From contig LN890280.1 of NCBI GenBank assembly GCA_900065925.1, forward strand, positions 1,728,451 to 1,792,450: DNA of 64,000 bases. Direction: 5' to 3'. Numbering within the stretch: the first letter of the stretch is position 1; the number at the start of each line of letters is the position of its first letter. This stretch comes from Nitrosotalea devaniterrae (GTDB taxonomy: Archaea; Thermoproteota; Nitrososphaeria; Nitrososphaerales; Nitrosopumilaceae). This document shows, piece after piece, positions 25,633 through 42,114 of the stretch. Position numbers and translations under genes: made by a program. The notes under the pieces were generated by a model. The model did no database searches and was not told where the DNA came from. It saw nothing but the letters and a program-made list of their open reading frames with translations.

Positions 25633-26760
25633 TTATAGAGCCTTTAGTTTTTCTTCAGCAACTTTGAGTGCTTCTGGATTTGTCTTGTATCCCATCATAT
25701 CAAGTGTAGATCCTATTGCAGAAATTGTTCTCATTACATGATACTTGTTGACTTCTCCCATACATCCAACTCGAAATACTTTACCTTTTAGTTCGCCAAA
25801 TCCACCTGCAACTAAGACTCGGAATTTTTCAGAAAGTGTTCCTCTGAATGTCTTGTCATCAAGACCTTCAAGATAGTTTAATGCAATTACAACTGTAGAA
25901 CGTGCATCTTCTTTAGCAAACGGTGATAATCCTAATGCACTTAGTCCACTGTAAAGAGCATCAGAACAAACTCTATGTCTTTTAATTCTGTTGTCAATTC
26001 CCTCTTCTAGGATAATATCAAGTGCTTCTCTGTATGCATAAAGCAATGGAATAGCAGGAGTAAATGGTGTTTCTTTGCTATCATCATAATACTTGAAGTA
26101 TCTTGCCATGTTAAAGTAGAATGTCGGAGGAGGATTTGCAATCATGTGCTTCTTTGCTTTTTGACTCACAGCAATTGGTGATATTCCTGGAGGTGCAGCG
26201 AGTGCCTTTTGTGCGCCTGTTACACATACGTCTACTCCCCACTTGTCCATATGGAATTCTTCTCCGCCAAGTATTGAAACTGCATCTACTACAAAGAAAG
26301 AATCGTTTCTTGCAGTAAGATCTTTTATTTTATCAAGATACTTTACCATTGTACCAGTAGAGGTTTCATTCCAAACTACATAGAATGCTTTTACATCTTT
26401 ATTGTTATCAAATGCCTCTTTTACTTGATCAAAAGTTGCATTTTGTCCAAATGGTGTTGTGAGACGTACTACATTTGCACCAGCCCACTCTAGCATTGTT
26501 GAGAGTCTGTTGCTAAATTCACCGTTGACTGGAATTATTACCTTGTCGCCTTTCTTTACCATGTTTACAACAGAGGCTTCTACTGCACCTGTTCCAGATG
26601 CACTAAGAGCTACTACATCGCTTGTAGTATCAAAAATTTTCTGACTCTTTTCAATAGTATCTACGTATAACTTGACAAAATCTTTGCTTCTGTGATTTAT
26701 CATGTGAGTAAACATTGAACGTGTTACTCTTTCTGGAACATTTGTTGGTCCAGGTAACAT
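25633..26760 (-). CDS. Class V aminotransferase (alanine-glyoxylate/serine-pyruvate type)
   Basis: 375 residues from ATG 26760, giving the family opening MLPGPTNVPERV; the longer ATG at 26805 adds 15 residues, and a TATA-like AATTTATTTGG about 20 bases upstream supports a leaderless start at 26760. PLP site: VDAVSILGGEEFHMDKWGVD, then CVTGAQKALAAPPG with the lysine. It probably transfers an amino group between alanine, serine or aspartate and glyoxylate/pyruvate; the exact substrate is undecided. Confidence 0.9.
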   Translation of the reverse strand: MLPGPTNVPERVTRSMFTHMINHRSKDFVKLYVDTIEKSQKIFDTTSDVVALSASGTGAVEASVVNMVKKGDKVIIPVNGEFSNRLSTMLEWAGANVVRLTTPFGQNATFDQVKEAFDNNKDVKAFYVVWNETSTGTMVKYLDKIKDLTARNDSFFVVDAVSILGGEEFHMDKWGVDVCVTGAQKALAAPPGISPIAVSQKAKKHMIANPPPTFYFNMARYFKYYDDSKETPFTPAIPLLYAYREALDIILEEGIDNRIKRHRVCSDALYSGLSALGLSPFAKEDARSTVVIALNYLEGLDDKTFRGTLSEKFRVLVAGGFGELKGKVFRVGCMGEVNKYHVMRTISAIGSTLDMMGYKTNPEALKVAEEKLKAL

Positions 26761-27044
26761 GACTAGATATTCCAAATAAATTCTCCAATTTGCAAGAAAG
26801 TTCACCGCTATTTATAATTAAAGTTCGCAAATATTGACCGTATTTTAGGCTCTGAATCAAACCTGTTTTTACCAGATTTCTGCTATTGTTACTAGGAAAG
26901 TTGGTTCTTTCATTCGTATGAGTTACTTTTAATGCGTCTAGATATAATTTTGCCAATTTTATAGGAGTTTTGTTATTTACACTAGCTAACGAGTGGTTCC
27001 AAATTCACCACAAACTATTAAGATCTGATCTACGTAATATTTGA
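26761..27044. other. Intergenic stretch, no gene seen
   Basis: About 285 bases between the aminotransferase and the structured RNA candidate. It holds the aminotransferase promoter near 26774-26784. A 101-codon frame crosses it on the minus strand (26651-26956) but overlaps the aminotransferase and has no coding character. I could not find a repeat here matching the right end of the island. Confidence 0.4.
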
Positions 27045-27105
27045 TAGGCAAAGGAGAGTTGCGATAACTCGCTGGGATGACCTTCGGGTCATTCCACCTT
27101 TCCTA
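27045..27105 (+). ncRNA. Candidate structured RNA, three-way junction with cUUCGg loop
   Basis: The bases fold as an outer stem (TAGG, one bulged C, AAAGG at 27045-27054 with CCTTTCCTA at 27097-27105), a hairpin (GAGTT/AACTC, 27056-27070, loop GCGAT) and a 9-bp hairpin (27074-27095) capped by UUCG between C and G. That tetraloop is exceptionally stable only when this strand is transcribed. It sits 4 bases from the stop of the convergent DUF3800 gene and lacks a T-run. It is not a tRNA, SRP or RNase P RNA by sight. Function is unknown; a terminator-like role for DUF3800 on the other strand is an alternative. Confidence 0.5.
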
Positions 27106-27108
27106 GCG

Positions 27109-27885
27109 TTATTTTATCCATCGAGTTTTTGCCGGGACTATTGATGGCTCATATCCTCGATCTCCAAGAGCAGAGATTTGATTGAATCTGTTGCTTTTAC
27201 AATGTTCAAAATGTTGCCAAACTGCTCTACTACAGAAATCAGCAAGTTGAATGCCGGGTGAAGTTTCTGAAGAAGCCATGTTAATTGTATTTAATAGATT
27301 ACCTAGATTGTCATCCATTCTAGGTCTGTAATTTTCACCGGTTAGCACTATTCCAAATCTTCTGAATCCAAGTATCATTTCTTGCAAATTTTTATCCTTT
27401 CGATATTCTTCAGCGTCATAAGTAACACTTCCAATAAGATTTTCTCTTTGCAAATAAATTGAGAATCTACCAATAGTAGCACGCATTGCTAGTCGATTTG
27501 GTATGTGGGCATTATGTCCGTAGACTCTTTTCAACTGTATTTTATTTATTGCAGTTGCAAACAAAACAGGCTTAAGTTCTAAAAGAAGATTGAAGACTTC
27601 ATCAGCAAGAGCTTTTAACTCCTCTTGTTTTAAATGTGAAAATAATCTTTGACCTCTAATAATGTCAAGATAATGTAATTCATACATTTTGTCGGGAAAT
27701 TTTGCTCTGACCTCTTCAGGAACATATTTTGCGAGGATTTTAGAGGTCTCCCTATGTGCCTTAAGATCAGCTTCTGGCGTTAGTACTAGTCCTGCAAGTA
27801 CATACCATTCCGTTTTACTTTTTCCGAATGGATGAACCCATCCAGTATCTCCAGAGGCATCAAGATATAGTGTACAAGAATCCAA
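27109..27885 (-). CDS. DUF3800 protein
   Basis: 258 residues. The N-terminus has the DUF3800 mark LYLDASGD; the C-terminal half has GIQLADFCSRAVWQHFE, the second family signature. The two acidic motifs (D..GD and QLAD) suggest an RNase H-like metal fold; such proteins are common in mobile elements and defence islands. The function is untested. It is the leftmost gene of the accessory island, and its start is a plain ATG. Confidence 0.85.
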   Translation of the reverse strand: MDSCTLYLDASGDTGWVHPFGKSKTEWYVLAGLVLTPEADLKAHRETSKILAKYVPEEVRAKFPDKMYELHYLDIIRGQRLFSHLKQEELKALADEVFNLLLELKPVLFATAINKIQLKRVYGHNAHIPNRLAMRATIGRFSIYLQRENLIGSVTYDAEEYRKDKNLQEMILGFRRFGIVLTGENYRPRMDDNLGNLLNTINMASSETSPGIQLADFCSRAVWQHFEHCKSNRFNQISALGDRGYEPSIVPAKTRWIK

Positions 27886-27954
27886 GACTTGTAACGAGGC
27901 TTCAGACTGATTAACTTTAGGATTTGTAGATAACGCTTGATTTACTATCTTAAT

Positions 27955-28221
27955 TTATAGATCCAAATTACAATTCATGCAGTATTTTTGACCTTCACAC
28001 ATGTCTTGCATTTTCTTGGGATGTTTGCACGGTGGCGCTATCTCTTTTTTGAGGGCACCCAGCCAGCTAATTTCGTTTGATAATGATGTTATTTCTCGCT
28101 GTACCAATCTGCCAACTACATCTATACCCCAGTCGTTTTCCGGTTTCTCTAGATTTTGCTTGTGTCTAGTTTTTATTTCAAGAAGCATTTCCACTATTTG
28201 GACTGCTTTTTTTGAAGTCAT
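27955..28221 (-). CDS. Small cysteine-bearing hypothetical protein
   Basis: 88 residues. The N-terminal two thirds are helical; the C-terminus holds a possible zinc site (CKHP, then DMCEGQKYCMNCNLDL). No known family. It lies upstream of DUF3800 on the same strand, 69 bases away, so the two may be co-transcribed. Confidence 0.6.
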   Translation of the reverse strand: MTSKKAVQIVEMLLEIKTRHKQNLEKPENDWGIDVVGRLVQREITSLSNEISWLGALKKEIAPPCKHPKKMQDMCEGQKYCMNCNLDL

Positions 28222-28329
28222 TAATTGATAATAGAAATACTAGAATAAATTATTCGGGTTATTTTGAAATATTCATGTCTAAAAGCTTATCCCGTCTTTG
28301 TATCTTTCATATCATTGTGAATAGTAAAA

Positions 28330-29001
28330 ATGGATAGAAAAACATGGGCAGTTCTTATTGTTGGAGGTTTGATAATGAGTACAGGTTTATCTTTTGTACT
28401 TAATTTTGGATCTTGGGTTCATCATGATGTTAATTTTCTTTATGTGAGTAATCCCATTAATCTTGAGAATGGAACAATATTTGTCATTTTAAATTTCACT
28501 ACTACAGATGCGTTTGTAGCACAAAAATCCATGGATGTTAATATGCAAGTTGTAGAAAAATCTGTGATTTATGAAAACGGTACGATTAAACCATTTCCGC
28601 ATCCATTGTCTAATGATTATAGAATTGGTTCGTATAATTTGATGATCATTAGCGCAAGAAATTCAGATTCAACTTATCCTCACACTGAATTGAATTATAC
28701 TGGTGCTTTTATTTCTCCATCTGATTATAAACAAAAACCGATGCTGCAAATAAATGGTAATGACAAAGTGATTTTTCCTCTAGCTGGTGATTATACAGCT
28801 TATCTGATAGTTATTGCACTTAATCATCCAGAACAAAGCATACCTCTAGGTAGAGTTATGAATGTCTCACCACCAGAAACATCATTACAAGTATCATCAA
28901 ATAATATTGGTATTGGTCTTTCCATAATTGTTGTAGGATTGACTATAGTTCAAATTGGTTTAGCATCACACACAATTAAAAAACACAGATCATCTGAATA
29001 A
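28330..29001 (+). CDS. Membrane-anchored extracytoplasmic protein
   Basis: 223 residues. An N-terminal helix (about 7-26, AVLIVGGLIMSTGLSFVLNF), an extracytoplasmic beta domain with several N-x-T sites, and a C-terminal helix (about 195-213, IGLSIIVVGLTIVQIGLA) ending in a short basic tail. No known family. The layout (two helices bracketing a surface domain) recurs in the island at 35523. Confidence 0.65.
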   Translation: MDRKTWAVLIVGGLIMSTGLSFVLNFGSWVHHDVNFLYVSNPINLENGTIFVILNFTTTDAFVAQKSMDVNMQVVEKSVIYENGTIKPFPHPLSNDYRIGSYNLMIISARNSDSTYPHTELNYTGAFISPSDYKQKPMLQINGNDKVIFPLAGDYTAYLIVIALNHPEQSIPLGRVMNVSPPETSLQVSSNNIGIGLSIIVVGLTIVQIGLASHTIKKHRSSE

Positions 29002-29017
29002 ATTATGTCAAAGTATT

Positions 29018-29569
29018 CTATGGATCAGTACTATCTTGTTTTTTATCTTCCTCTTCTTTCAAACGTTCTAATTCCTCTTTTACTATTTTTTTGATATCTT
29101 CAATAGAATATGGCGGAGATAATCTCTGTGTTCCTACACGAATTTTGGCGTTTTTATAATTTTGTAACTTTCTATGAATAAACTCTGCTATACTGATAGA
29201 ACCCGCTGCTATACTGATTATATTACTAACCCAAAAAATAACAAATTCACTTTGCATTGATTCAACAGATGCTTGGTAAATTCCTCCATTGCCTTGTATA
29301 GTAATTCCTTTTTCTTCAAATGATTCGCCAGCTAGATGAGGGAGTTCATTAGCTTTTGGTGCAGAAAAAGCTATATCTAATTTTAAACTGTTGCTTTCTA
29401 ACTCACGTAAAATATCTTCTAGAATCATTACGTTAACACGCTGTTGGTTTTTCACTGCCATTCTAAAATTATCATCAGTATCATTGATTTCACAGGATTT
29501 TGTTTCGCCCTGAATGTATTCTCTAAGTTTTTTTATTCCCGATTTGTGTGTCATATTACCAATTAGCAC
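29018..29569 (-). CDS. Hypothetical protein with one membrane helix
   Basis: 183 residues, GTG start; ATG at 29554 is an alternative. A soluble N-terminal domain is followed by one membrane-like helix (about 107-127, FVIFWVSNIISIAAGSISIA) and a strongly charged C-terminus rich in E and K (VKEELERLKEEEDKK). It has no known family. It is convergent with the gene at 28330. Confidence 0.55.
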   Translation of the reverse strand: MLIGNMTHKSGIKKLREYIQGETKSCEINDTDDNFRMAVKNQQRVNVMILEDILRELESNSLKLDIAFSAPKANELPHLAGESFEEKGITIQGNGGIYQASVESMQSEFVIFWVSNIISIAAGSISIAEFIHRKLQNYKNAKIRVGTQRLSPPYSIEDIKKIVKEELERLKEEEDKKQDSTDP

Positions 29570-29739
29570 ATCTAATAATTAATCTTTGAAATAGTTAAAA
29601 AACTCCAATTGTATTTTAAAGAACCACCTAATCAGGTCATTTCCCAACTATTGTTAAGCATCTTCATTTCTCACTCCCAAGAGGATTTTAGTATATGAAA
29701 GGAGAGTTTAACTGAAACGTGTGAAAAATAAATCACAGA

Positions 29740-31029
29740 TTGAACAGATTTCGGTTTACAAACATGTATGATATTAGAAAAACAATTAACGAAATTGAAT
29801 CTGTAGATAGAACTCACTTTAATGAAAAAATTATTCTACATCTGGCAATAGACAAAAAAGACACCCCTAAACCATCCTTTATCAAGATAGATTTCTTAGC
29901 AAAAGATGAACCATTACCTGATGAATTAACATATGATTATGGTGATTTCATCATAATTAGAAAGACTATTTCATATTCTGAATTTATTGATATGTTATAT
30001 CATATTGAAGATCAAACTAAATTTGGAATTAGACCAATACAAGATAATATTGTAAAAACGGAACAGTGGGATAGATTTTACATATCAAGCAATCAATCAT
30101 GGGGATACATACAACCTGAATTTCCTACACTTTATTTTCAATCTAGATTTGATCAACAAACTAGTGGCATCATACCGCAGGAAATACTAGCTGCTAAAGA
30201 TACACCTCCATATCCAAATGCTAGTAAAGCAATAGCACATATCTTTGGAATAAGAGTTGGATGGAATCAGGAACGATATTTTGTAATATCAATTCCAGAT
30301 TATAGAGCAAGAATTAAGACTGTACGAATTTCCAATAACAAAATACTGACGGATATTGATGCTAGATACATATCTGAAAAGGAGTTGTTCTACCAGTTTT
30401 ATCTTGGAGGAAACAATCAGGCAGTATCAGAATCCAAGGTTGAAATTAAAAATGGTATATCTACTATTTCCATACCAAAGGACTCTGATCACTATCTAGT
30501 TTTATTGATGACAAAATCTGGTGAGTTGCTTGATAAAAAAGAGATCTCAACAGCATATCCTTCTCAGGATTCTAGTGTGATAGTAGAAATTCCATCATAT
30601 AGTCTCATGGAGATGATTTCAAATGGAGAAGGAAAACATATTGAATTTAAATCCAAACTCGATAACCCAGAACCATTTATCACTTCAGTAGTATCATTTT
30701 CAAATACAGGAGGTGGGCGAATTTTCATTGGAGTTAACGATTATGGAGAGATCATCGGTATCGATGAACCTGATGCCATCACGAAGAAAGTATTTGAGTG
30801 GATTGCACAATATTGTGACCCGCGAGTAGATGTCAAACCAACACATTCTACTGATCTTAATGTCATAGTGGTTGATGTTCCAAAAGGTGTAAACAAGCCA
30901 TACTTTCTAAAAACTGGCGGGTGTTTTGTAAGACATGGTGCTACGGACAGACAAGCTACAAGAGTAGAGTTAGAGAGCATGAAAAAACCCCAAGACATGA
31001 ATGAACGTAGAGGATTAGCACTAGAATAG
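29740..31029 (+). CDS. AlbA_2/Schlafen-type protein with novel N-terminal region
   Basis: 429 residues, TTG start (ATG at 29764 is an alternative). Residues about 287-400 match the AlbA_2 (Schlafen-like) domain: GEGKHIEFKSKL, SFSNTGGGRIFIGVND, then VIVVDVP and FVRHGATDRQATRVELE. The N-terminal 280 residues are not recognised. AlbA_2 proteins bind nucleic acid or ATP, and Schlafen relatives include defence proteins and tRNA or RNA nucleases. It is isolated in the island, with no helicase half. Confidence 0.78.
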   Translation: MNRFRFTNMYDIRKTINEIESVDRTHFNEKIILHLAIDKKDTPKPSFIKIDFLAKDEPLPDELTYDYGDFIIIRKTISYSEFIDMLYHIEDQTKFGIRPIQDNIVKTEQWDRFYISSNQSWGYIQPEFPTLYFQSRFDQQTSGIIPQEILAAKDTPPYPNASKAIAHIFGIRVGWNQERYFVISIPDYRARIKTVRISNNKILTDIDARYISEKELFYQFYLGGNNQAVSESKVEIKNGISTISIPKDSDHYLVLLMTKSGELLDKKEISTAYPSQDSSVIVEIPSYSLMEMISNGEGKHIEFKSKLDNPEPFITSVVSFSNTGGGRIFIGVNDYGEIIGIDEPDAITKKVFEWIAQYCDPRVDVKPTHSTDLNVIVVDVPKGVNKPYFLKTGGCFVRHGATDRQATRVELESMKKPQDMNERRGLALE

Positions 31030-31163
31030 ATTCAATCATTGAAAAGAGTAGTAATCTTGAATCGGATCCAATGCCTGAACGGTTTATTCTTGTAGCATGA
31101 ATGATTTCATTTCTCTTTTAATAGGATTTACAGTAATATTGATCCATAATTTCATGTAAGATA

Positions 31164-31301
31164 TTATTGATTATTCTTTAATTGCGTGAGTGAATATTCA
31201 AAACCATGCGAACGATTTGCGTATTTCTTTTTCTTAATTTGCAAATCAAGCCATTTTATTAGATCTTCATCAACTGTAATGCTGAGTTTAACCTTGACCA
31301 A
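31164..31301 (-). CDS. Ribbon-helix-helix (CopG-like) regulator
   Basis: 45 residues from a TTG at 31301. The protein reads KVKLSITVDEDL for the DNA-binding strand, followed by two helices with KKYANRSHGFEYSLTQL, the hallmark of CopG-type regulators. It lies divergent from the gene at 31384, and the shared region holds the inverted repeat at 31349-31365. It probably represses both genes. No toxin partner is adjacent on its own strand. Confidence 0.8.
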   Translation of the reverse strand: MVKVKLSITVDEDLIKWLDLQIKKKKYANRSHGFEYSLTQLKNNQ

Positions 31302-31313
31302 TAGTATGACTAA

Positions 31314-31365
31314 GTAGGATACAGCAATTTATCTAGGAGTGAGATAAAATCCTACTAGGTAGGAT
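31314..31365. promoter_or_regulatory. Putative operator for the RHH regulator
   Basis: A perfect 7-bp inverted repeat, ATCCTAC-TAG-GTAGGAT, at 31349-31365, plus a third copy of GTAGGAT at 31314-31320. The sites lie between the divergent RHH gene and the gene at 31384, as expected for an autoregulated operator. Confidence 0.6.
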
Positions 31366-31383
31366 ATTTAGAGATGTCTGAAT

Positions 31384-31986
31384 ATGGTAGATGAAAAAAT
31401 GGTAGACATACACACACCGGACGGAGCCGTGAAGCTATTGACCGATTGGATAGTAGAAAACATGTATGAAGAAATTAAAAATCGTGAATCTACTGATATC
31501 ATAGACATTACTCCTTCTGAATTATTAGACAAAATAGTAAGTCTCTACCAAGGAGATGAACTACACAGAATCATAAGAACTGCCGTATTTGATGCCATAG
31601 AGAATGTAAAAAGTGACAAGGTAACTGACGCACATGAAAAATTCATTGAGGGTGTTGCTGTTGATACCCCAAAGGATAAGGCTCAAAATATTATCGAATC
31701 AAAAGTGCCCACGAAAAAGAAGACAGGTAAATCTGCCAAGATTTCAGGTATAGTCATTGCAATTTGTGCAGTGATAATCATTACAAGTCTGGTACATACA
31801 GACTCAAAATATTGGGGATTGACGGATACACAAAGATCAAAAATAAAGGCTATGGAAAATACCTGTGATGCTAATGGAGCAGCTGCATGGCTCCAGTCAG
31901 GACAATATGATCAAGCCTTCCATGATAGATGTTATGGAGCAATAGATTCACAAATACAGCAATTCCGTAGCTTGAATCAAAAGTAA
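31384..31986 (+). CDS. Single-pass membrane protein with soluble N-domain
   Basis: 200 residues, ATG start. A cytoplasmic acidic N-domain (1-105), a lysine-rich linker, one membrane helix (about 119-138, ISGIVIAICAVIIITSLV) and an external tail with two cysteines (CDANG and DRCYG) that could form a disulphide. No known family. Its promoter region carries the RHH operator, so it is probably the controlled partner of that regulator. Confidence 0.65.
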   Translation: MVDEKMVDIHTPDGAVKLLTDWIVENMYEEIKNRESTDIIDITPSELLDKIVSLYQGDELHRIIRTAVFDAIENVKSDKVTDAHEKFIEGVAVDTPKDKAQNIIESKVPTKKKTGKSAKISGIVIAICAVIIITSLVHTDSKYWGLTDTQRSKIKAMENTCDANGAAAWLQSGQYDQAFHDRCYGAIDSQIQQFRSLNQK

Positions 31987-32024
31987 AATATGTTTAGATT
32001 CGGCACTTGGTATATTCTAAAATT

Positions 32025-33023
32025 TTAGGTTTCGCCATCAATCAATTGTTTCTTTATATTTTCAAATTCTGATGGAGTAAATATACCAGTATCACGCAAT
32101 TTGTTAAGTGCTTCAATCTCTTTAGTCATATCATATCCACAATAGGCTAGTACCACTCTATCATTAGGTTTCTTTAACTCAATACTTGGAATAGTTTTCA
32201 AATTCATAGATGATGCAATTTTTTCTATCATTTCTTGAAGTTCGCCTCTTACATGACTTTGTTCTGCCCCTATGTGCATGGTGAATAATGAAACCAAGAT
32301 TGTAGCTATGGGTATTTTAGACAATTGTCTTTCAACCATAGATTTTGGAACGCCTAGTCCAGGTATCACTTGATTCTCAAGAAATTGGATTAACTGAGAA
32401 TTACCAGTTTGTATTGCGAATCTTAAATTATATAGCGGTGTCAGTACTATTCTCAAAATAGAATCCCCATACGTATCATATGACCAAATGTCATGTCCTT
32501 TCAAATGGACTACGTCTTCTTTTGTATAATTCTTAATGTTTTCACCTTCCTTTACCTTGATTCCTTTGATTTCTCTTTCACCAGTATACGCTTGTCCACG
32601 TTGAATATTACCTCCAAGTTCTATTGAGACATTCTTTGGATGCAGTAATTGTAAACTTGTTATCTTGCCTGATTCATCTTTTTTTAACAAGATGAAGGCA
32701 TCTCCATACAAGAACATGTGTTGGAATGCATCTTTTAACAAGACATCAAAATTAGAATTTTTTAAAAATTGTTCAATCTGTAAATGAGACTTATCATCAG
32801 TAGGTTTTATTGCATAATTTCCGGCATATTTGGTAAGTAAGTCTATTGATCCTCTTACTAATGGAATATTCTTGTAATAGTAATCATAAGCATCATGTAT
32901 AGTGAATTCTCTATTACAAGAAGTACATTTTAATAATTTATGATTCTGAATTTGTTGAAAAGTTGTATCAACTCTTTTTGTACAAAATGGACATCCAAAG
33001 AAAATATCAAAATCAATTGACAC
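32025..33023 (-). CDS. Phage-portal-like protein with zinc ribbon and SHOCT tail
   Basis: 332 residues, GTG start. A zinc ribbon leads (C11, C14, C33, C36). The core (about 55-215) resembles viral portal proteins: AFQHMFLYGDAFILL, LHPKNVSIELG and DVVHLKGHD...YGDSIL. The last 30 residues (ALNKLRDTGIFTPSEFENIK) match the short SHOCT motif. No terminase, capsid or tail gene lies near, so it is either a provirus remnant or a portal fold reused by the host. Identification is by pattern only. Confidence 0.55.
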   Translation of the reverse strand: MSIDFDIFFGCPFCTKRVDTTFQQIQNHKLLKCTSCNREFTIHDAYDYYYKNIPLVRGSIDLLTKYAGNYAIKPTDDKSHLQIEQFLKNSNFDVLLKDAFQHMFLYGDAFILLKKDESGKITSLQLLHPKNVSIELGGNIQRGQAYTGEREIKGIKVKEGENIKNYTKEDVVHLKGHDIWSYDTYGDSILRIVLTPLYNLRFAIQTGNSQLIQFLENQVIPGLGVPKSMVERQLSKIPIATILVSLFTMHIGAEQSHVRGELQEMIEKIASSMNLKTIPSIELKKPNDRVVLAYCGYDMTKEIEALNKLRDTGIFTPSEFENIKKQLIDGET

Positions 33024-33062
33024 TAGCTACCTGCGTCATGCCATATTATAAAGACCATCTTT

Positions 33063-33149
33063 TGTACTGGATATATTCAAAAATTTGAGTTTTTTGTATG
33101 AGATGTATCACATCATTATATTCAACTGACGCCGTGTGGAGAAATCGTT
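33063..33149. repeat. Left copy of 87-bp direct repeat
   Basis: Aligns without gaps to 34651-34737 with about 15 mismatches in 87; the first 23 bases are identical. The two copies are in the same orientation, 1.6 kb apart, and bracket the genes at 33313 and 33825. Each also lies 40-75 bases upstream of a minus-strand start (33023 and 34577). Confidence 0.85.
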
Positions 33150-33312
33150 CTAAATTTAGATTATTTCAGAAGGGTAGTTGACAGGATAAAAAACCAAAGC
33201 CTATCCCCATGGATGAAACTAGAGCTAACTACATAATACAAAATGTCATGATTTGTTGGGAAGAATTCAACTTTAGAAAGTTTATCATCAAACGTATTTA
33301 CTATTAGAAATA

Positions 33313-33828
33313 ATGGATAACAACAATTCCAGTCAGATTAATGATGGAGCAATTTTAGAAAGATCATATATTTTTTGTAACGAAACAATGCATACAATAT
33401 CTCTTCAAGTCAGACGCCTTCAAACTACGGAACCGGAAGATTCAGAATTCATATTTAGAAAATGGGCAGATCTACGATTTCTAATTTTATCTCTTGATAG
33501 ACTTTACAAAGCTACAGGTATAGCACTTAATGTTAAAAGTATTTCAAATGATGTACAAAAAGCTAGACAGGAATTTCGTAATTCTATGCCGTTTTTAAAA
33601 AACCTACGTGACATAGGAGAACATTTTGATTCTTATTCTATGGATAATGGACGTCTAAAGAATATCTCTAGGGGAGATCTTCAGGTTGGAACATGGGGTC
33701 GCGATGGGACTTGGTTTAATTGGCTTGGTGAAGAGATAAAGGTCATTGAATGTGAACAAGCTGCAATAGAATTATTCAAAAAGATGCGTGATATTAGGAA
33801 TAATTTTAAAAAACCTCAAATTAATTAA
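33313..33828 (+). CDS. HEPN-like hypothetical protein
   Basis: 171 residues, all-helical by composition. It carries R-D-I-G-E-H (R99, H104), which fits the R-x4-H pattern of HEPN RNases, in the context NLRDIGEHFDSY. HEPN proteins often serve as RNA-cutting toxins or defence effectors. The family match is weak, since only the motif and helical character are seen. It ends 4 bases inside the convergent membrane gene, and the pair lies between two direct repeats. Confidence 0.5.
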   Translation: MDNNNSSQINDGAILERSYIFCNETMHTISLQVRRLQTTEPEDSEFIFRKWADLRFLILSLDRLYKATGIALNVKSISNDVQKARQEFRNSMPFLKNLRDIGEHFDSYSMDNGRLKNISRGDLQVGTWGRDGTWFNWLGEEIKVIECEQAAIELFKKMRDIRNNFKKPQIN

Positions 33829-34577
33829 GAGTCCAATATTGGAAATTTTCCACTTAATCTACGCTTGACATTCACCATTAATCGATCCAACTGGAATTTT
33901 TTTAATAGATAATAGCTTATGATTGCAGTGTAGAAACAAAATGCAAAAAGGATCAACATTGCTAATAAAATGTATAACATGATCTGTGGTTTTGTAACAA
34001 GTGGATAGATTAATGATGTGAATATGAATGGTGAAATTGCCCATTCAAGATTTGATGACATTTCTCTGCCTAAATTTATTCTACTACTATCTTCTTTATT
34101 TTCAAACATAAGACCGGATTTTGTTAAGAGGTATGTAGCCACATTAATGATCGAAGCCGCAAATAATGATGGCACAGAGGTTAACATCATAATGATTACT
34201 ACTCTATTTGCATTCTCAGATAACGCGTCTAACATTCCAGTCCAAGTAAGAATATTGCAGATTATGGCAAATGAGTATAGAGTAGTTCTAATAGAGAATT
34301 TCAATACTGATGGAGTTTTTGCTTCAATTGTTGCATACGTGTATGAACCGTGATCCTGGTGTCGCCATTTGTGTAATGTAGCAAATCTTTGAGTAAAACC
34401 CGGAGAACACTCAATTGATATGGCAGCTGGAATCAAAGCAAGCATAGTCATAGCAAAAGGTATCCCCAAAAACCATAGTGATTGATTACCTTGAGCAATT
34501 GCAGTTGGAATTGATATGCCTACTGCAAACCACGTGATCTTGGATTTGAGAATTTTTTTGATTTTTTCTTTATTCAC
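33825..34577 (-). CDS. Multi-pass membrane protein
   Basis: 250 residues with about six hydrophobic segments (for example FLGIPFAMTMLALIPAAI, TLYSFAIICNILTWTG, VIIMMLTSVPSLFAASIINV and MLYILLAMLILFAFCFYTAI). No transporter motif is seen. GTG start. It is convergent with the HEPN-like gene (4-base overlap), and both lie between 87-bp direct repeats, which suggests a joint module. Confidence 0.65.
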   Translation of the reverse strand: MNKEKIKKILKSKITWFAVGISIPTAIAQGNQSLWFLGIPFAMTMLALIPAAISIECSPGFTQRFATLHKWRHQDHGSYTYATIEAKTPSVLKFSIRTTLYSFAIICNILTWTGMLDALSENANRVVIIMMLTSVPSLFAASIINVATYLLTKSGLMFENKEDSSRINLGREMSSNLEWAISPFIFTSLIYPLVTKPQIMLYILLAMLILFAFCFYTAIISYYLLKKFQLDRLMVNVKRRLSGKFPILDS

Positions 34578-34650
34578 AATTTTGGTAGAAACATGAAAGA
34601 AGTAATAAGTAGATCTAACTAAGCAAATTAGTTTAAATTTATTATGATTC

Positions 34651-34737
34651 TGTACTGGATATATTCAAAAATTCAAGTTTTTTGTATTAGCAGTATCACC
34701 TTATAAGATTCAAATGACACGGTGTGGATAATTCGTA
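34651..34737. repeat. Right copy of 87-bp direct repeat
   Basis: Partner of 33063-33149, about 83% identical without gaps, same orientation. The shared block starts TGTACTGGATATATTCAAAA. It holds no ORF and could be an activator or operator element shared by two genes, or the scar of a cassette insertion or duplication. Confidence 0.85.
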
Positions 34738-34760
34738 ATCAGATCAAGTTTCCTAGAAAT

Positions 34761-35408
34761 TCATATCATTTTATCAAGTTTTACTAACAAGTTTTCTGTT
34801 GCGTCAACAAATCCTTTTGTCTCAAGACGGGCAATTTTTCCTTTTTCAGCAAAAATGTAATATTTTCTCAGTGGCTCATAGATTTTTAATGCATCTTCAA
34901 GAATATCATGCGGTATGACATCGCCGAATTCATATGCAAATTTCTGCATGTCATTTATTAACACACTTAGACTCATTTCCAAAAGTTTCACTTCTTGTTC
35001 GTAACTATCCTTGGCTGTCGCAGGAATCGTATTTTCAACAGCATAGATTGTGCCTATATCTATTAATTTTCGTTTTAGTAATTGCAAGTCTAAATGCATT
35101 TTTTTGATTACAAATTTTCCTCGGTTCTTTTTGCTCTCGTTTTGTTCTAATATTATATCATTAATTCGAGACTGTTGAGTATCAGTATAAATCAAAATTG
35201 CTATTGCTATTGCTATTCCTATTCCAGTTGAAACTACCAACGTAGCCCATCCTGAAATATCATAATGTTCATCAGTAGTTTTAACCAAAAAAGAGAAACT
35301 AGTGTTCATACTAAAATAGATAATTGTGCTTATGATCCCTATTGTACTCAAAATAAAAATAATAATGATTTGTTGTATTGGACTCCAAGGAGTACATGAT
35401 AATTTCAT
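34761..35408 (-). CDS. Two-helix membrane protein with cytoplasmic helical domain
   Basis: 215 residues. Two membrane helices near the N-terminus (about 11-32 and 50-72) are followed by a helical cytoplasmic domain with no cysteines. No family is recognised with confidence. The gene is divergent from 35523, with an inverted repeat between them. Confidence 0.6.
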   Translation of the reverse strand: MKLSCTPWSPIQQIIIIFILSTIGIISTIIYFSMNTSFSFLVKTTDEHYDISGWATLVVSTGIGIAIAIAILIYTDTQQSRINDIILEQNESKKNRGKFVIKKMHLDLQLLKRKLIDIGTIYAVENTIPATAKDSYEQEVKLLEMSLSVLINDMQKFAYEFGDVIPHDILEDALKIYEPLRKYYIFAEKGKIARLETKGFVDATENLLVKLDKMI

Positions 35409-35470
35409 TATCTCAATTATACAAGTTTCTTCTTTCTTAAAACAGTTTAACAGTATTACTGCATAACTAT

Positions 35471-35521
35471 GTTTAGTAAATTTTTGTATAAGTTAATCTA
35501 TTTCATAAATTTATACTAAAC
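35471..35521. promoter_or_regulatory. Inverted repeat between divergent membrane genes
   Basis: GTTTAGTA at 35471-35478 and its complement TACTAAAC at 35514-35521, with AT-rich sequence between. The right arm ends one base before the start at 35523. It could be a shared operator. Confidence 0.35.
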
Positions 35522-35522
35522 A

Positions 35523-36563
35523 TTGCAAGTTAATCGAAAACGAATTTATAAAATTATTATGATAAGCATTATAGTAATACTTACGGGTGTTGACTTGTAT
35601 CTGATTATTCAGAACTCAACATACAGTCAACCTGTTTTAATAGGTACAAATGATTTAGGGCATATTTACTTTACAGCTCATGTAGAGATATACGATTATT
35701 CTCATCGTAATTACATAGCAGAACATGATCAGTTTGGATATAGCGTAAGATATCAGAGTCATTCAAGTACGCTACAAATTAATCAAAATCTTTTCGTAAT
35801 TAATGGAAAGACTAATGAACAATATCCAATAGCGGGTATTTACGAACTGAAAAATGATGGTTCAACTATTACCATCTCAACGCCTCTCATAATTGACATG
35901 GTAGGATCAAATACGGTAGATCTCCAGTTTCAAGTAATAAATAAAACAACTAACAAAATAGTAACAACAAACGATATTCCTGTAAATATAGAAACCATAT
36001 CATTGGCTGACGGATTACAACAAGATGCATTAAACATACAAAGACAGAACATATTTTTTACAGCCATGATAGGAGTAGTAACTGCAATCGGAGTATACTT
36101 GTCATATGATAATTCCAGAAAAATAGAAGAAACTCAACGAAAGCAAATTGATATTCTTAAAAATCAACACGATTCACAGCGTCAACAATTCTTTTCTCAA
36201 GCTATGCTTACTTGCTTCAACATACTGAGTAATTCAGACATTCGTAGTTGTAAAGAAATCATAGGTCAAGAACGCAGGGATCGGATGGAACATAAAAAAT
36301 CTCTAATTTTCAATGAAGATGGTATTAAAAACTGCGCTGACAAAATAGAAGAAGCTTACAATGAAGTATCAGCATTATATCTTTTAGATCTTTTAAACAA
36401 AGAAAACTTTCGTACTGTATATGGAGGTGGGTTGGTTATTTGGTGGAAGGTTATGAAAGATGACATAAAAGAAAAACAGAAAAAAAGTCCAAAGATAGGT
36501 AAGCATTTTGAAGATGTAGCTGACGAACTTATGAAAGCTGGGATAAATGATGAACCTTATTGA
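35523..36563 (+). CDS. Bitopic-pair membrane protein with extracytoplasmic and cytoplasmic domains
   Basis: 346 residues, TTG start. A first helix (about 10-29, IIMISIIVILTGVDLYLII), an external beta domain (30-175), a second helix (about 178-196, FFTAMIGVVTAIGVYLSY), then a cytoplasmic coiled/helical domain (200-346) that begins with a charged heptad-like run. The layout resembles a sensor with outer input and inner output. No catalytic motif seen. A DUF4760-like match for the inner domain is possible but not established. Confidence 0.6.
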   Translation: MQVNRKRIYKIIMISIIVILTGVDLYLIIQNSTYSQPVLIGTNDLGHIYFTAHVEIYDYSHRNYIAEHDQFGYSVRYQSHSSTLQINQNLFVINGKTNEQYPIAGIYELKNDGSTITISTPLIIDMVGSNTVDLQFQVINKTTNKIVTTNDIPVNIETISLADGLQQDALNIQRQNIFFTAMIGVVTAIGVYLSYDNSRKIEETQRKQIDILKNQHDSQRQQFFSQAMLTCFNILSNSDIRSCKEIIGQERRDRMEHKKSLIFNEDGIKNCADKIEEAYNEVSALYLLDLLNKENFRTVYGGGLVIWWKVMKDDIKEKQKKSPKIGKHFEDVADELMKAGINDEPY

Positions 36564-36580
36564 GGATATTCAAGATACAA

Positions 36581-36988
36581 TTATTTCTTCTTAAGAGCAG
36601 AGGCAACTACAGCTATTGCACCTGCAATTATTATAGCTGTAAGAAGACCCTTGGCTAGTTTCATTGCCGTTCCTTCATAACCACATGCCTCCAGGACAGC
36701 TATTACAATAATATCAATTTCAGCAGTAAAGAAGTCACCTTCCAGTAAAGATGTAGCCTCTTTGATTATTGATGAAGTCATATCTTTTTCCTGTCCCTGT
36801 GCATATTGCTTTAGGAAAGGACAAACAATCCTACTGAATAATGGATCATTTCTAAATTCTGCAACAAGCCCAGTTTTACCCTGATGATTAACATATTTTC
36901 TCATATCATAATGAGGATGTGTCAAACTCCATTCAGAACATTTCTTTCTAAAGTAATCACAAGATTCAGGATAACTCATAAAATTCAC
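36581..36988 (-). CDS. Hypothetical protein with C-terminal hydrophobic helix
   Basis: 135 residues. A soluble N-domain with three cysteines and aromatic residues; the C-terminal 25 residues are a membrane helix (LLTAIIIAGAIAVVASAL) closed by KKK. Its ATG shares one base with the stop of the upstream DUF3892 gene, so the two are coupled. Function unknown. Confidence 0.6.
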   Translation of the reverse strand: MNFMSYPESCDYFRKKCSEWSLTHPHYDMRKYVNHQGKTGLVAEFRNDPLFSRIVCPFLKQYAQGQEKDMTSSIIKEATSLLEGDFFTAEIDIIVIAVLEACGYEGTAMKLAKGLLTAIIIAGAIAVVASALKKK

Positions 36989-37293
36989 TAAAATGTTGGC
37001 AAATTTCCTAAATTGTCAGAAGTTGTATTATCTGCTTTAGTTTTGATATAGTCTATACCGTTAACCCTATCAATTATGATATATTGTCCGAAATCCCAGT
37101 TACCATTACTATTCTTTGTAATAGTTGCATACTTCAAACCTGCTTTAATATTTGAAACAACAGTTGATCGGAGTGCTGAATTACCGTTTGTAATTTTATC
37201 ATTAATATCTTCTCGTTGCCATACTTGGTCTATGTGAGGATGATTTACATTGTATCTCACATGCGAAATGAGATAATCAGCCCATTTTGTCAT
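36988..37293 (-). CDS. DUF3892 protein
   Basis: 101 residues. It shows the DUF3892 pattern: ADYLISHVRYNVNHPHIDQV near the start, a KAGLKYATITKNSNGNW segment, DRVNGIDYIKTKADN, and the SDNLGNLPTF ending. The family's function is unknown and it is scattered among mobile regions. It is co-transcribed with the membrane-tailed partner downstream. A palindrome (37302-37312) lies just before its ATG. Confidence 0.8.
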   Translation of the reverse strand: MTKWADYLISHVRYNVNHPHIDQVWQREDINDKITNGNSALRSTVVSNIKAGLKYATITKNSNGNWDFGQYIIIDRVNGIDYIKTKADNTTSDNLGNLPTF

Positions 37294-37301
37294 GTTTGGT
37301 A

Positions 37302-37312
37302 TGTACAGTACA
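37302..37312. promoter_or_regulatory. TGTACAGTACA palindrome
   Basis: A perfect 11-bp palindrome 9 bases upstream of the DUF3892 ATG. TGTAC is also the start of the 87-bp repeats at 33063 and 34651. It is a likely operator. Confidence 0.35.
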
Positions 37313-37373
37313 ATAATTTAACAATGATCTATAGTTGATGGTTAACCTGTGATGTACGATCTTTTGACTGTAT

Positions 37374-37406
37374 GTTAGTAAATTGTTAGCAAATTGTTTG
37401 TAATTT
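37374..37406. promoter_or_regulatory. Three tandem 11-bp repeats
   Basis: GTTAGTAAATT, GTTAGCAAATT and GTTTGTAATTT lie head to tail at 37374, 37385 and 37396. An 11-bp period keeps the sites on one DNA face. They end 17 bases before the GTG at 37423 and resemble a phased binding site for a regulator. Confidence 0.55.
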
Positions 37407-37422
37407 CTATCATAATTCTTAA

Positions 37423-38454
37423 GTGGTTGTATTTGATCCGATCAAATCGGGGAGTTGGCCTATGATAGATACTCAAATACGAATATACCGTCAGTACAGA
37501 ACTTATCGCCTAGTAAATGCCAGAGTAATGGAAATTACTGCGCGATATTACATGTGGATAAAGGCAAAAACTGAACTTTGGGTCTACGGATTACCGGGTT
37601 ACCTGCCAAGTTTAGATGTAAAAAATAGCGATGGAGTTAGTCTGCCAGTACTGAGCCCCGACGAACTAAATCATTTATTGAAAGGTGAGACTGAACAGGA
37701 GATGGGAATAATAGCAAAGGAGCGAGTTACGCAAGAAAGTCTTCGTAAATTGATGAGTCAGACAGAAGCAGGTAAAAAATCCAAAGCTCCAGTAGATAAT
37801 CCAAATGGTAAAGCAGTTCATTATGTTGGAGTAATATTACCACCAGTGGACTTTGATCATTTTGAAGAAATCACATTACAGTGGATAGAGCAGATTGAAA
37901 GTAAAGAGAACTCAAATCACTGCATTAGTCAACATGTAAACCGCCAGCATATCATAGAATCTACAACTACTGATAGTGAATATATCGACATAACAATGGA
38001 TAACAAAAAGTATGAGTTACGCAAAACACCGGAAATAACTGCTGTTGATGTAGACAAAAAACCAGTAAATATCACAGATGGTAAAGAATACGTAAAAGTT
38101 CTTAGTGATAAGACGCGATCCGTCTTTAGAATTAAGAGAAATTGCCCACACATATTTACTATCAAATGGTCTATTGGTATTCCTAATCTTGTCAGGAGAT
38201 GGGCTTGGGCTGGCTTTGCAATAGCATTATCAGTTATCGCTTTTGCAATAGCAGGCTTTGTTCATGATAAATCAACATTTGATTTCAATGCAAGATTATT
38301 GGCTGGTTTGATTGCTATGATTGTGGCTTTCCGGGCTCTCTTATTCCATGATACTGATTTGATGTCTCGTTGGAATAAGGTATACCTCATACTATTAGGG
38401 ATCATCGTAGGAATAGTCTTGGTAATGTACCTGATATCCAAAATTGTATCATAA
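37423..38454 (+). CDS. Membrane protein with large soluble N-domain
   Basis: 343 residues, GTG start. The N-terminal 240 residues are soluble and charged; three hydrophobic helices close the protein (about 259-280, AWAGFAIALSVIAFAIAGFV; 289-307; 318-342). No known family. Its promoter holds three phased 11-bp repeats. It is another of the soluble-plus-membrane proteins of the island. Confidence 0.6.
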   Translation: MVVFDPIKSGSWPMIDTQIRIYRQYRTYRLVNARVMEITARYYMWIKAKTELWVYGLPGYLPSLDVKNSDGVSLPVLSPDELNHLLKGETEQEMGIIAKERVTQESLRKLMSQTEAGKKSKAPVDNPNGKAVHYVGVILPPVDFDHFEEITLQWIEQIESKENSNHCISQHVNRQHIIESTTTDSEYIDITMDNKKYELRKTPEITAVDVDKKPVNITDGKEYVKVLSDKTRSVFRIKRNCPHIFTIKWSIGIPNLVRRWAWAGFAIALSVIAFAIAGFVHDKSTFDFNARLLAGLIAMIVAFRALLFHDTDLMSRWNKVYLILLGIIVGIVLVMYLISKIVS

Positions 38455-38523
38455 AAATATAACAATGAAGTAGTAAATTTTATCAAAAAGTATATCTATA
38501 GTAGATCGGAAGTGACTGTACGA

Positions 38524-38640
38524 ATGGTTCCTGCGCCACATTGGCAAGTCAAAAATGAAGGCGATTGTAGTAAAATCATAGGCAAAGGCATAGCAGAAGG
38601 ACTTACTGACATTAAGGTAGAAGCAGACATTACTGAATGA
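38524..38640 (+). CDS. Possible 38-residue peptide
   Basis: ATG to TGA, with a GTG 12 bases earlier in frame. The peptide starts MVPAPHWQVKNEGDCSKI and contains IGKGIAEGLTD, an even, protein-like composition unlike random AT-rich frames. It follows the membrane gene by 70 bases. Coding status rests only on composition. Confidence 0.3.
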   Translation: MVPAPHWQVKNEGDCSKIIGKGIAEGLTDIKVEADITE

Positions 38641-38670
38641 TTTACTATCATTATTGTTTATTTTAGAATT

Positions 38671-38785
38671 TTTCATTATATACGTCTGATACTGAAACTT
38701 TCCAGTCGTCAACCATACTTAGGAAGCTAGATAAACCATGTAAAAATGAGGAACGAGATTGTTTTAGTTTAACCAATTAAGGAAC
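38671..38785 (+). repeat. Tandem repeat copy 1, possible small RNA unit
   Basis: Similar over 115 bases to 38807-38921. Copy 1 opens with a TATA-like CATTATATACG, followed by the conserved blocks ACTTTCCA, AACCAT, GATAAA, AAATGAGGA and CCAATTAA. There is no shared reading frame. Each unit may be a promoter plus short transcript. Confidence 0.6.
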
Positions 38786-38806
38786 AAGTTTCTTTATATA
38801 TGAATT

Positions 38807-38921
38807 CTCTTTATAAACGCCAATACTGAGAACTTTCCAATCCTAAACCATGCGTATGAGGGTGGATAAAACACGAAGAAAATGAGGATCGGAATTTTAA
38901 AACTCTGCCAATTAACGATTC
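38807..38921 (+). repeat. Tandem repeat copy 2, possible small RNA unit
   Basis: Second copy, 136 bases downstream of the first. It opens with CTTTATAAACG in the place of the first copy's TATA-like box and keeps the same conserved blocks in the same order, with changes between them. That pattern suggests selection on short motifs or an RNA shape. Confidence 0.6.
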
Positions 38922-39005
38922 GGTTTAGATATCCATGCCTATTCTAGAGAGTGTGAGTGTGAGAAATGATTAGAATACTAAAACTTGAAAATAAAATGTT
39001 GTATT

Positions 39006-39044
39006 AGTTACTAACTTACTAATTTTTCAAAAAAGTTAGTAACT
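39006..39044. repeat. 12-bp inverted repeat, two 9-bp palindromes
   Basis: AGTTACTAACTT (39006-39017) pairs with AAGTTAGTAACT (39033-39044) over a 15-base AT-rich spacer. Each arm holds a palindrome (GTTACTAAC or GTTAGTAAC), so it may be a pair of operators rather than a hairpin terminator. It shares GTTAGTAA with the 37374 repeats. Confidence 0.6.
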
Positions 39045-39173
39045 TTTCACACACTGTTCAGATCGTATTCTAGTATTGCTATCATCTATAATATTTCGTA
39101 TATAAAAAAAATAATGTGTGTGAGTGTATGATATCTAGGATATGATATCTGTAGTAGATACTGGGGAATCTTG

Positions 39174-39428
39174 TTACTTGTATTTTATCAGAGTGATTCC
39201 AAACTCATTCGTACGACTCACACACTTACCCATACTTGAACACATTTTGTCAAGATATCTTTTTGCAGTTACAGGAGAAATCTCTGCTAGTTCTGCACCA
39301 GAGTATACTAGTTCCTCTAATACTGCATATCCTACCTTATTCAGTTTGTCATAGACAAATTTCCTAAAGATTGGCTCTTTATTCCTGCTAACCTGTAATT
39401 CAGAAGGATTCTGTGGTTGTTCGCTCAC
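39174..39428 (-). CDS. Small HTH-like protein
   Basis: 84 residues, GTG start directly after the upstream stop (no gap). The middle (KVGYAVLEELVYSGAELAEI, then SPVTAKRYLDKMCS) reads as a helix-turn-helix with a recognition helix. It is the last of three small genes in one operon. It probably binds DNA; the target may be the GTGTGAGTGT sites near 39118, though this is only proximity. Confidence 0.6.
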   Translation of the reverse strand: MSEQPQNPSELQVSRNKEPIFRKFVYDKLNKVGYAVLEELVYSGAELAEISPVTAKRYLDKMCSSMGKCVSRTNEFGITLIKYK

Positions 39429-39674
39429 TTACATAACACCTCCTGATTCAATTGCTTGTTGTGCAACTCTTGCTAGCAATGCATTTCTAGCCCTCCTCAA
39501 AAGCTGAGTTCTGTTGGCTCTTGGCTTTACTGCTAAAGGATTTTTGCAACAGGGACATAGTATGTCATTACATACCATAAAGACCTCGCAATGTCTACAG
39601 CATTTCTTTCCATCTTTGTAGTTAGGAGCAAGCCCATGAAATCTATCACAGATTCCCTTGCAAGACCTACTCAT
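39429..39674 (-). CDS. Zinc-finger protein
   Basis: 81 residues. Nine cysteines in pairs (SCKGIC, KCCRHC, CNDILCPCC) form one or two zinc ribbons, followed by a basic arginine-rich helix (RANRTQLLRRARNALLARV). It is suited to nucleic-acid binding. Its ATG overlaps the TGA of the 51-residue gene upstream (ATGA), and its stop abuts the next GTG. Small zinc proteins of this kind are common in archaeal mobile elements. Confidence 0.7.
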   Translation of the reverse strand: MSRSCKGICDRFHGLAPNYKDGKKCCRHCEVFMVCNDILCPCCKNPLAVKPRANRTQLLRRARNALLARVAQQAIESGGVM

Positions 39675-39826
39675 TTTATCTCCCTTGCGGAAATTGCATA
39701 TTTTTTGAAATACTCTAGTTTGCCGTGTTTCTCACAGACATGGAAAAGCTGTTCCCCTTCTGGTGATGTTACTCGAATTTCGAGTATCTTTTTCTTGTCA
39801 CAGCAAGAGTTTATTTTTTCAAGCAT
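39671..39826 (-). CDS. 51-residue zinc-binding protein
   Basis: ATG (39826) to TGA (39671). The residues C8, C9, C31 and H34 (NSCCDKK, HVCEKHGK) could bind one zinc. It is coupled to the next gene by a 4-base overlap and starts a three-gene operon of small nucleic-acid-binding-type proteins. The start lies 10 bases from the divergent ATG at 39836. Confidence 0.65.
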   Translation of the reverse strand: MLEKINSCCDKKKILEIRVTSPEGEQLFHVCEKHGKLEYFKKYAISAREIK

Positions 39827-39835
39827 GAAATATCT

Positions 39836-40789
39836 ATGAAAAAATACGCCATGTTACAGTTCAGACGCACGCTTCTAGGTATAAGATATAAGGCTGAAAA
39901 ACAATTTATGCCTAAGAAACCGCACCATTTTAGTTTGGAAAATATAGATCAGATTCTAGGGGATTACAGCAGGCGTTTGTTTAGTGGTTTAAAGGATGAA
40001 GAATACAATATTCTAAAATGGTTAGCGAAAAATGGTGCACAGAGTCTTTCTGAAATCAACGAATTCCGTAGATGGAGTGTAAAGAGACATCTGTATGGTT
40101 CAAAGCGGATTTTTAGTCTGATTGATCAAGAGTATGTACGTATCATTGTAATCAATAAAAGAAAAAAATATGATTTAACAATGAAAGGCTTACTCGCAGT
40201 TTTAGCTGTAACCCACTTTGAAGATATTCATCTAATACAAACTTACAGAAAATCTCTACAGAGGAAAATAAAGAAAATTAAATTGGTAAAGTGGTCTCTT
40301 GATTTTATAAAATATGAAATAGCATTGGTCATGAATTATAATTATTTACAGGGATTAGACTGGACTAGATTCAAATTTGTTCAGTGGTATTGGGATAACT
40401 TGAAAGACGAGGATACAATAATATCAGAAATTATAGTTAATCCAATATTTTTAAAAAAAAATAATGTTGCAACAGAAGATTACAATTACATAAAAAAGGA
40501 ATATCTGAGATTATTTTTTATTTTAAATTTTTGTACCATTAAGATATCACTAGGAAAACAAGTCAATCCAAATATTCTTGAAAAAGATCAAACTGGTCGT
40601 AAATTTATTCATTTGTGGCATCATTACTTGATTTGGGATACAAGTGAGAAATCCTTGAAAGAAAGACAACAATATAGAACTATCAAGAAAAATGCTGAAA
40701 AACCCTATAGAGAATATTTAGAATCAATAGAAAAAGAAGCTAAAGAAATTGTTCTTAAAAATGGATATGAAATATCAAACAAAACCTAA
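39836..40789 (+). CDS. Winged-helix-like protein of the island
   Basis: 317 residues. About residues 48-125 look like a winged helix (GLKDEEYNILKWLAKNGAQ, then RRWSVKRHLYGSKRIFSLI and a YDLTMKGLLAVLAV tail). The rest is helical and rich in aromatic and basic residues, with no enzymatic motif. Lysine-rich, AT-rich codon use fits the island. The 3' end overlaps the convergent integrase by 4 bases. It probably binds DNA. Confidence 0.65.
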   Translation: MKKYAMLQFRRTLLGIRYKAEKQFMPKKPHHFSLENIDQILGDYSRRLFSGLKDEEYNILKWLAKNGAQSLSEINEFRRWSVKRHLYGSKRIFSLIDQEYVRIIVINKRKKYDLTMKGLLAVLAVTHFEDIHLIQTYRKSLQRKIKKIKLVKWSLDFIKYEIALVMNYNYLQGLDWTRFKFVQWYWDNLKDEDTIISEIIVNPIFLKKNNVATEDYNYIKKEYLRLFFILNFCTIKISLGKQVNPNILEKDQTGRKFIHLWHHYLIWDTSEKSLKERQQYRTIKKNAEKPYREYLESIEKEAKEIVLKNGYEISNKT

Positions 40790-42060: not shown

Positions 42061-42063
42061 GCA

Positions 42064-42085
42064 TTAGGTAGCAAAAAGTACCTAA
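42064..42085. promoter_or_regulatory. Inverted repeat upstream of integrase
   Basis: TTAGGTA (42064-42070) and TACCTAA (42079-42085) with an 8-base spacer, four bases before the integrase ATG. It is either an operator or part of the attachment or recombinase-binding site. Confidence 0.45.
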
Positions 42086-42114
42086 AATACACCGATTATC
42101 AACAATCTTGATAA

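Follow-up and report, generated by a model that had tools for sequence, protein, structure and literature searches.

A small three-way-junction RNA beside a DUF3800 gene in an archaeal integrative element: a probable relative of the bacterial DUF3800-VI RNAs and a candidate RNA antidote

The window, by which is meant the whole stretch of 64,000 nucleotides of the Nitrosotalea devaniterrae genome analysed here (contig LN890280.1, positions 1,728,451 to 1,792,450), carries an integrative element of 15.3 kb (26824-42113), inserted between an aminotransferase gene (25633-26805, minus strand) and the 3' end of an NMN adenylyltransferase gene. The element is absent from two congeners (L004 and L006), where the flanking genes abut; it is bordered by two identical 10-bp att repeats, ATAATTAAAG, located at 26814-26823 on the left and at 42111-42120 on the right and present as a single copy in the empty site, and it carries a tyrosine integrase gene at its right end (40786-42060, minus strand; Phage_integrase PF00589, E 1.9e-9). 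What a sequence-only reading of this DNA had called an island is indeed a mobile unit, recognisable by its att repeats and its integrase. In most congeners, the aminotransferase gene is directly followed by that of nicotinamide-nucleotide adenylyltransferase, and others carry different inserts there; the first 45 bases of the present insert (26824-26868) are found again in the insert, otherwise different, that L008 has at this position, with similar sequences in L013 and L018; the site therefore seems to serve several integrative elements. Among the other contents of the element are a protein of 429 aa (29740-31029) whose C-terminal domain is Schlafen AlbA_2 (PF04326), a short protein resembling a phage portal and bearing a zinc ribbon at its N-terminus (32025-33023), near which no other phage structural gene was noted, and an 89-bp direct repeat, 83% identical (33060-33148 and 34648-34736).

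About 220 bp inside the left end, as cargo of the element, lies a 61-nt sequence (27045-27105, plus strand) that folds as a three-way junction; a role as the end of the island or as an att site was rejected, the att sites being elsewhere. An outer stem, UAGG(C)AAAGG/CCUUUCCUA (27045-27054 paired with 27097-27105), with the single bulged C27049, encloses hairpin A, of 5 bp (GAGUU-GCGAU-AACUC, 27056-27070), and hairpin B, of 10 bp (27073-27096), which includes one G.U pair and is closed by a C-UUCG-G loop; the junction bases are A27055 and GC at 27071-27072. Sequence and pairing agree with the sequence-only reading, which had recognised the bulged outer stem, the two hairpins and the C-UUCG-G loop within 61 bases. 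The folding energy is -26.6 kcal/mol for the plus strand (z -4.2, with none of 200 shuffles as good) and -22.4 kcal/mol for the minus strand (z -3.0); in the minimum-energy fold of the plus strand, the small hairpin takes the form GCGA-UAAC-UCGC, the 5-bp version being the one favoured by the comparative data. Folding energy alone is weak evidence for the element, because loose three-way junctions are also found 3' of 79 out of 121 control genes; indeed, set against this figure, their count in the 3' flanks of DUF3800 genes (24 out of 31) is uninformative. A tRNA search was negative, as had been expected by eye, and Rfam returned no match to the element at the gathering threshold or at E<=10 over the 251 bases searched. 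The host, an ammonia-oxidising archaeon, holds a single copy, and a DNA similarity search of the 36 other genomes of the genus found none.

A covariance model built from three copies (R1) retrieved the others, including those of two DPANN MAGs, bringing the total to 16 copies in 11 archaeal genomes, which belong to relatives of Nitrosopumilus, to one Nanoarchaeota MAG and to one Micrarchaeota MAG. When 15 copies are aligned on the strand of the DUF3800 gene that adjoins the element in the window (see below), 91.6% of the pair cells are standard and 15 of the 21 pairs have changed on both sides; if the partners are slid in the same alignment as a control, standard pairs fall to 42-57%. On the other strand, the alignment of 16 copies holds 94.8% of its pair cells; both sides have changed in 18 of its 22 pairs, and the double-change cells number 60. 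The junction bases are conserved among the copies, and the UUCG loop is not. The search for paired changes in relatives by means of a covariance model, which had been suggested as a check, has therefore returned conserved stems with compensatory changes, and the fold is, as had been claimed, beyond chance; judged by its covariation, the element is real and its structure under selection. A viral match (L078) was rejected as chance, the pattern lying within a coding gene, and the weak matches of a second model (R2, see below) to L108, L110, L111, L114, L116, L117 and L118, for the most part rich in GC or with gaps in their pairing, were likewise treated as chance. A search of plasmids and phages with P0001 gave no match.

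The neighbour of the RNA, convergent with it (tail to tail) and 3 nt apart, is a DUF3800 gene with a TTG start (27109-27885, minus strand), encoding a 258-aa protein of RNase-HII-like fold (PF12686, E 8.9e-11). The AlphaFold model (mean pLDDT 82) has an RNase H fold, the nearest fold according to Foldseek being that of RNase HII (E 2.9e-4), and D9, E69, D157 and D216 are invariant in six homologues; as modelled, the fold and the acidic residues would fit a nuclease. Published work describes DUF3800 as having an RNase H fold in which the catalytic residues are rearranged, and as associated with noncoding RNAs (PMC10910872); at some class 2 CRISPR loci it is an accessory protein (PMC12669027). 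PADLOC gave no hit.

Other archaea have homologues that belong to this clade, 33-54% identical, and a similar element lies directly 3' of the stop codon of the corresponding genes. In the protein tree, the eight DUF3800 genes accompanied by this RNA class form one clade (support 99/98), in which two DPANN proteins are included, the RNA class spanning three archaeal phyla; a ninth member (L036) has a shorter, similar element matched by no model. Since this class of RNA is restricted to a single DUF3800 clade, and that clade crosses phyla, gene and RNA move together, which upholds the suspected tie between the RNA and the adjacent gene. In two genomes (G048 and G199), DUF3800 genes from two or three clades coexist and their 3' flanks differ; the type of RNA thus tracks the protein and not the host. 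In general, archaeal DUF3800 3' flanks give better folds than the 3' flanks of control genes do (median z -2.36 vs -0.54, p 5e-9). Past the stop codons of other archaeal DUF3800 clades (L046/L050, L052/L057, L054/L056/L061/L051 and L058/L059) different structured elements are found, one of them with a GGAACCCCCC loop, and none has an Rfam match. Two genes of the RNA-linked clade (L040 and L042) contain in-frame stop codons, and the RNA beside L042 has a degraded outer stem too, as if the gene-RNA pair decays together.

The strand of the RNA was at first taken to be that of the gene, as a DUF3800-sense 3' UTR, a reading dropped after the results on fold, upstream box, pair asymmetry, model scores and bacterial relatives. 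A TATA-like box, CTATTAAGA (27015-27023, plus strand), lies 22-30 nt upstream of the RNA and is its putative promoter; across the 16 aligned copies, an AT-rich box occupies positions -28 to -20 (AT 0.84 vs 0.60, a value reached in 0 of 10000 permutations), and 20-28 nt upstream is the usual distance of an archaeal TATA box. A general test for such a box on other DUF3800 RNA classes was negative, and the promoter claim is therefore limited to the present class. On the 3' side, a T-rich stretch, GCGTTATTTTATCC (27106-27119, plus strand), which overlaps the DUF3800 stop codon, may act as an archaeal terminator; in the 16 copies, the first 15 nt past the RNA have a T content of 0.39 and a G content of 0.10, the composition being flat beyond, and a terminator scan of both strands found no terminator-like T-run. 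When a folding rule symmetric for the two strands is applied, 35 A.C against 15 G.U pairs are counted on the DUF3800 strand (p 0.007 on cells, not all of which are independent), and an A.C on one strand is a G.U on the opposite one. The strand opposite to DUF3800 also folds more stably in 12 of 17 cases, and a model of that strand built from the same three copies as R1 (R3) outscores the DUF3800-strand model on 9 of 13 held-out copies, a mild advantage (mean +3.0 bits, p 0.047). Taken together with the bacterial relatives described below, the box, the pair asymmetry, the fold stability and the model scores support an RNA on the plus strand of the window, convergent with DUF3800; the plus strand had been proposed on account of the UUCG tetraloop, and the strand stands while the reason does not, the loop being variable. 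In all likelihood, then, the segment 27045-27105 is a genuine gene for a small RNA and has a promoter of its own, from which it would be transcribed.

Five copies, one in G338, one in G387 and three in G045, are RNA-only loci with the promoter box present; the DUF3800 gene of the RNA-linked clade was not found in these three genomes, which are drafts, 87-96% complete. In G037, four RNA copies accompany one DUF3800 gene. There (L087, 8470-13166), all four copies share a strand and form two pairs, with a spacing of about 310-320 nt and with flanks that are repeated; one pair sits 3' of the DUF3800 gene. Copies about 185-320 nt apart occur only in G045 and G037, and copies that share a genome have similar promoter-side flanks. 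Because the RNA persists where the gene is missing, it is probably a separate partner of the DUF3800 protein, acting in trans; a cis element, or the guide of a missing enzyme, would be expected to decay, while a trans RNA, such as an antidote, could persist.

A bacterial counterpart is offered by the Rfam family RF02915 (DUF3800-VI), located about 50-60 nt upstream of the start of DUF3800 genes on plasmids and phages. A covariance model made from archaeal copies only (R2) and run without filters on bacterial loci placed the RF02915 sites at ranks 1, 2, 3 and 5 of 20 matches, with ends within 1 nt (L124, 17.8 bits; L119, 14.0; L120, 10.6; L123, 7.1); in a second set, the site in L102 was the top match and that in L103 the seventh, with ends within one base. 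The matches of R2 to these sites are weak (E 0.004 to 4). R3 also matches several RF02915 sites on the plus strand, and the strand given by Rfam for RF02915 corresponds to the plus strand of the window. Both RNAs are compact three-way junctions of 52-61 nt, composed of an outer stem and two hairpins, with junctions formed by A, by G plus a pyrimidine and by no base (1/2/0 nt), and both adjoin DUF3800; the archaeal RNA differs in its bulged outer stem and longer second hairpin, in its TATA-type promoter box and RNA-only copies, and in lying 3' of the gene on the opposite strand, whereas RF02915 is upstream on the same strand. The RF02915 covariance model itself gave no match to the archaeal element at the gathering threshold, or at E<=10 over 251 bases. 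The comparison makes homology likely and, the scores being weak (7-18 bits), stops short of proof; the shared architecture may instead have arisen by convergence. By score and by position the archaeal RNA falls outside RF02915 and is kept apart from that family; it is probably a form of the DUF3800-associated three-way-junction RNAs whose closest known member, on present comparisons, is the bacterial DUF3800-VI.

The organisation of the bacterial loci bears on the nature of the RNA. In L119, a promoter (647-675), the RNA (683-739), a terminator (751-775) and the DUF3800 start (801) follow one another, and the order of -10 box, RNA, terminator and DUF3800 start is visible by eye in ten bacterial loci; in L122, the scan found neither promoter nor terminator. 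Rfam files RF02915 as Cis-reg; despite this label, a terminator separates the RNA from the gene, which suggests that the RNA is free-standing.

The order of promoter, RNA, Rho-independent terminator and protein also defines the type III toxin-antitoxin loci (PMC5086642). The bacterial relatives share this layout; the archaeal RNA is convergent with its gene, not upstream of it. Binding and restraint of the protein are judged to be the most likely task of the RNA. In the type III systems (ToxIN, CptIN and TenpIN), as here, a small structured RNA and a nuclease-fold protein form a mobile two-gene module. The antitoxins of those systems form pseudoknots, in tandem arrays beside ToxN-type enzymes; the DUF3800 RNA, unlike them, is a three-way junction, usually single (no tandem repeat accompanies the one copy in the window), with an RNase H-fold neighbour. 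According to the mechanism proposed here, the RNA gene would be free-standing, transcribed from the TATA promoter at about 27015-27023, and its transcript would end in the T-rich stretch past 27105, tail to tail with the DUF3800 gene; the RNA would work in trans and serve the RNase-HII-like protein as its dedicated partner, binding it and restraining its presumed nuclease in the manner of a type III-like RNA antitoxin. The status of RNA gene is well supported, the conserved structure, the pairing with one protein clade, the promoter-like box, the bacterial counterpart and the RNA-only copies being shown by sequence comparison; the role of antidote, with the binding, nuclease activity, toxicity and inhibition that it would entail, we infer, and the mechanism as a whole we regard as about as likely to be right as wrong. 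A literature search found data on toxicity, binding or inhibition for no DUF3800 protein.

TnpB and IscB are RNase H-fold nucleases with an adjacent RNA, and the main rival to the antitoxin reading, in our view an unlikely one, is that a DUF3800 nuclease uses the RNA as an activating cofactor or as a guide and would form with it an effector ribonucleoprotein of that kind. The RNase H fold of DUF3800 (Foldseek; PMC10910872) and the tracking of one protein clade by the RNA are consistent with such a complex, as is the presence of DUF3800 proteins, of the same family and fold, at Cas12a2 and VI-F CRISPR loci (PMC10910872, PMC12669027). The integrative element of the window showed neither CRISPR genes nor CRISPR repeats. 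The flanks are alike within a genome, so that the variable guide expected next to a scaffold is not in view, the RNA is small and nearly all structured, and copies without a matching gene are hard to explain.

Less probable still is a cis-acting element in the 3' UTR of the DUF3800 mRNA (minus strand), serving stability, processing or autoregulation: the gene-linked copies do lie a few tens of nt past the stop codon, and the superior folding of archaeal DUF3800 3' flanks would suit it, but the evidence on strand speaks against it, the promoter-like box sits beyond the RNA as seen from the gene, some copies have no gene, and in bacteria the RNA is upstream with a terminator in between. A DNA hairpin, for instance one that forms the terminus of a small mobile element and is recognised in single- or double-stranded form, could account for the several copies with conserved flanks in G037 and in G045, and covariation is unable to separate DNA from RNA; it is nevertheless improbable, given that what is conserved in the outer flank is a box, at a fixed promoter distance, that the G.U/A.C counts are strand-biased, that no transposase was noted nearby and that the att ends of the element in the window are located elsewhere. 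An intrinsic terminator of DUF3800, one of the two outcomes that the sequence-only reading had named as fatal to its proposal, or chance folding, has the position 3' of the stop codon in its favour and is scarcely credible in view of the compensatory pairs, the conserved junction bases and the lack of a terminator-like T-run on either strand.

To our knowledge, DUF3800-associated RNAs have been catalogued for years with no function assigned. Other Rfam DUF3800 motifs, such as RF02969 (DUF3800-I) and RF02968 (DUF3800-IX), are also structured RNAs beside DUF3800, according to PMC11701678 and to earlier work cited in PMC10910872; motifs other than VI were compared through Rfam searches, in which none matched the window element at E<=10. 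In the broad sense of a conserved structured RNA beside DUF3800, the archaeal element belongs with them, and it is an undescribed archaeal variant of a known, unexplained kind of RNA. New here are the archaeal class, its strand and promoter box, the matching protein clade and the copies that survive without a gene, together with evidence that DUF3800-associated RNAs are free-standing genes and not leaders, and a specific, testable idea, that of an RNA partner controlling an RNase-HII-like enzyme. A wider and more tentative proposal, possible and on the whole doubtful, is that DUF3800 proteins and three-way-junction RNAs constitute a new cross-domain class of RNA-protein module, which could be a toxin-antitoxin resembling type III or a nuclease of RNase H fold under the control of an RNA; if so, archaea would have RNA antidotes too, and the RNA-only loci would be stand-alone antidotes against incoming DUF3800-bearing elements.

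Three small plasmids of E. coli and Klebsiella (NZ_CP104685.1, NZ_CP075065.1 and NZ_CP041106.1; 3.6-5.7 kb) also carry DUF3800. RF02915 reported no match to them, and upstream of their DUF3800 genes there is a three-way-junction sequence and a terminator-like hairpin; with a similar RNA on plasmids of this kind, the idea could be tested in laboratory strains.
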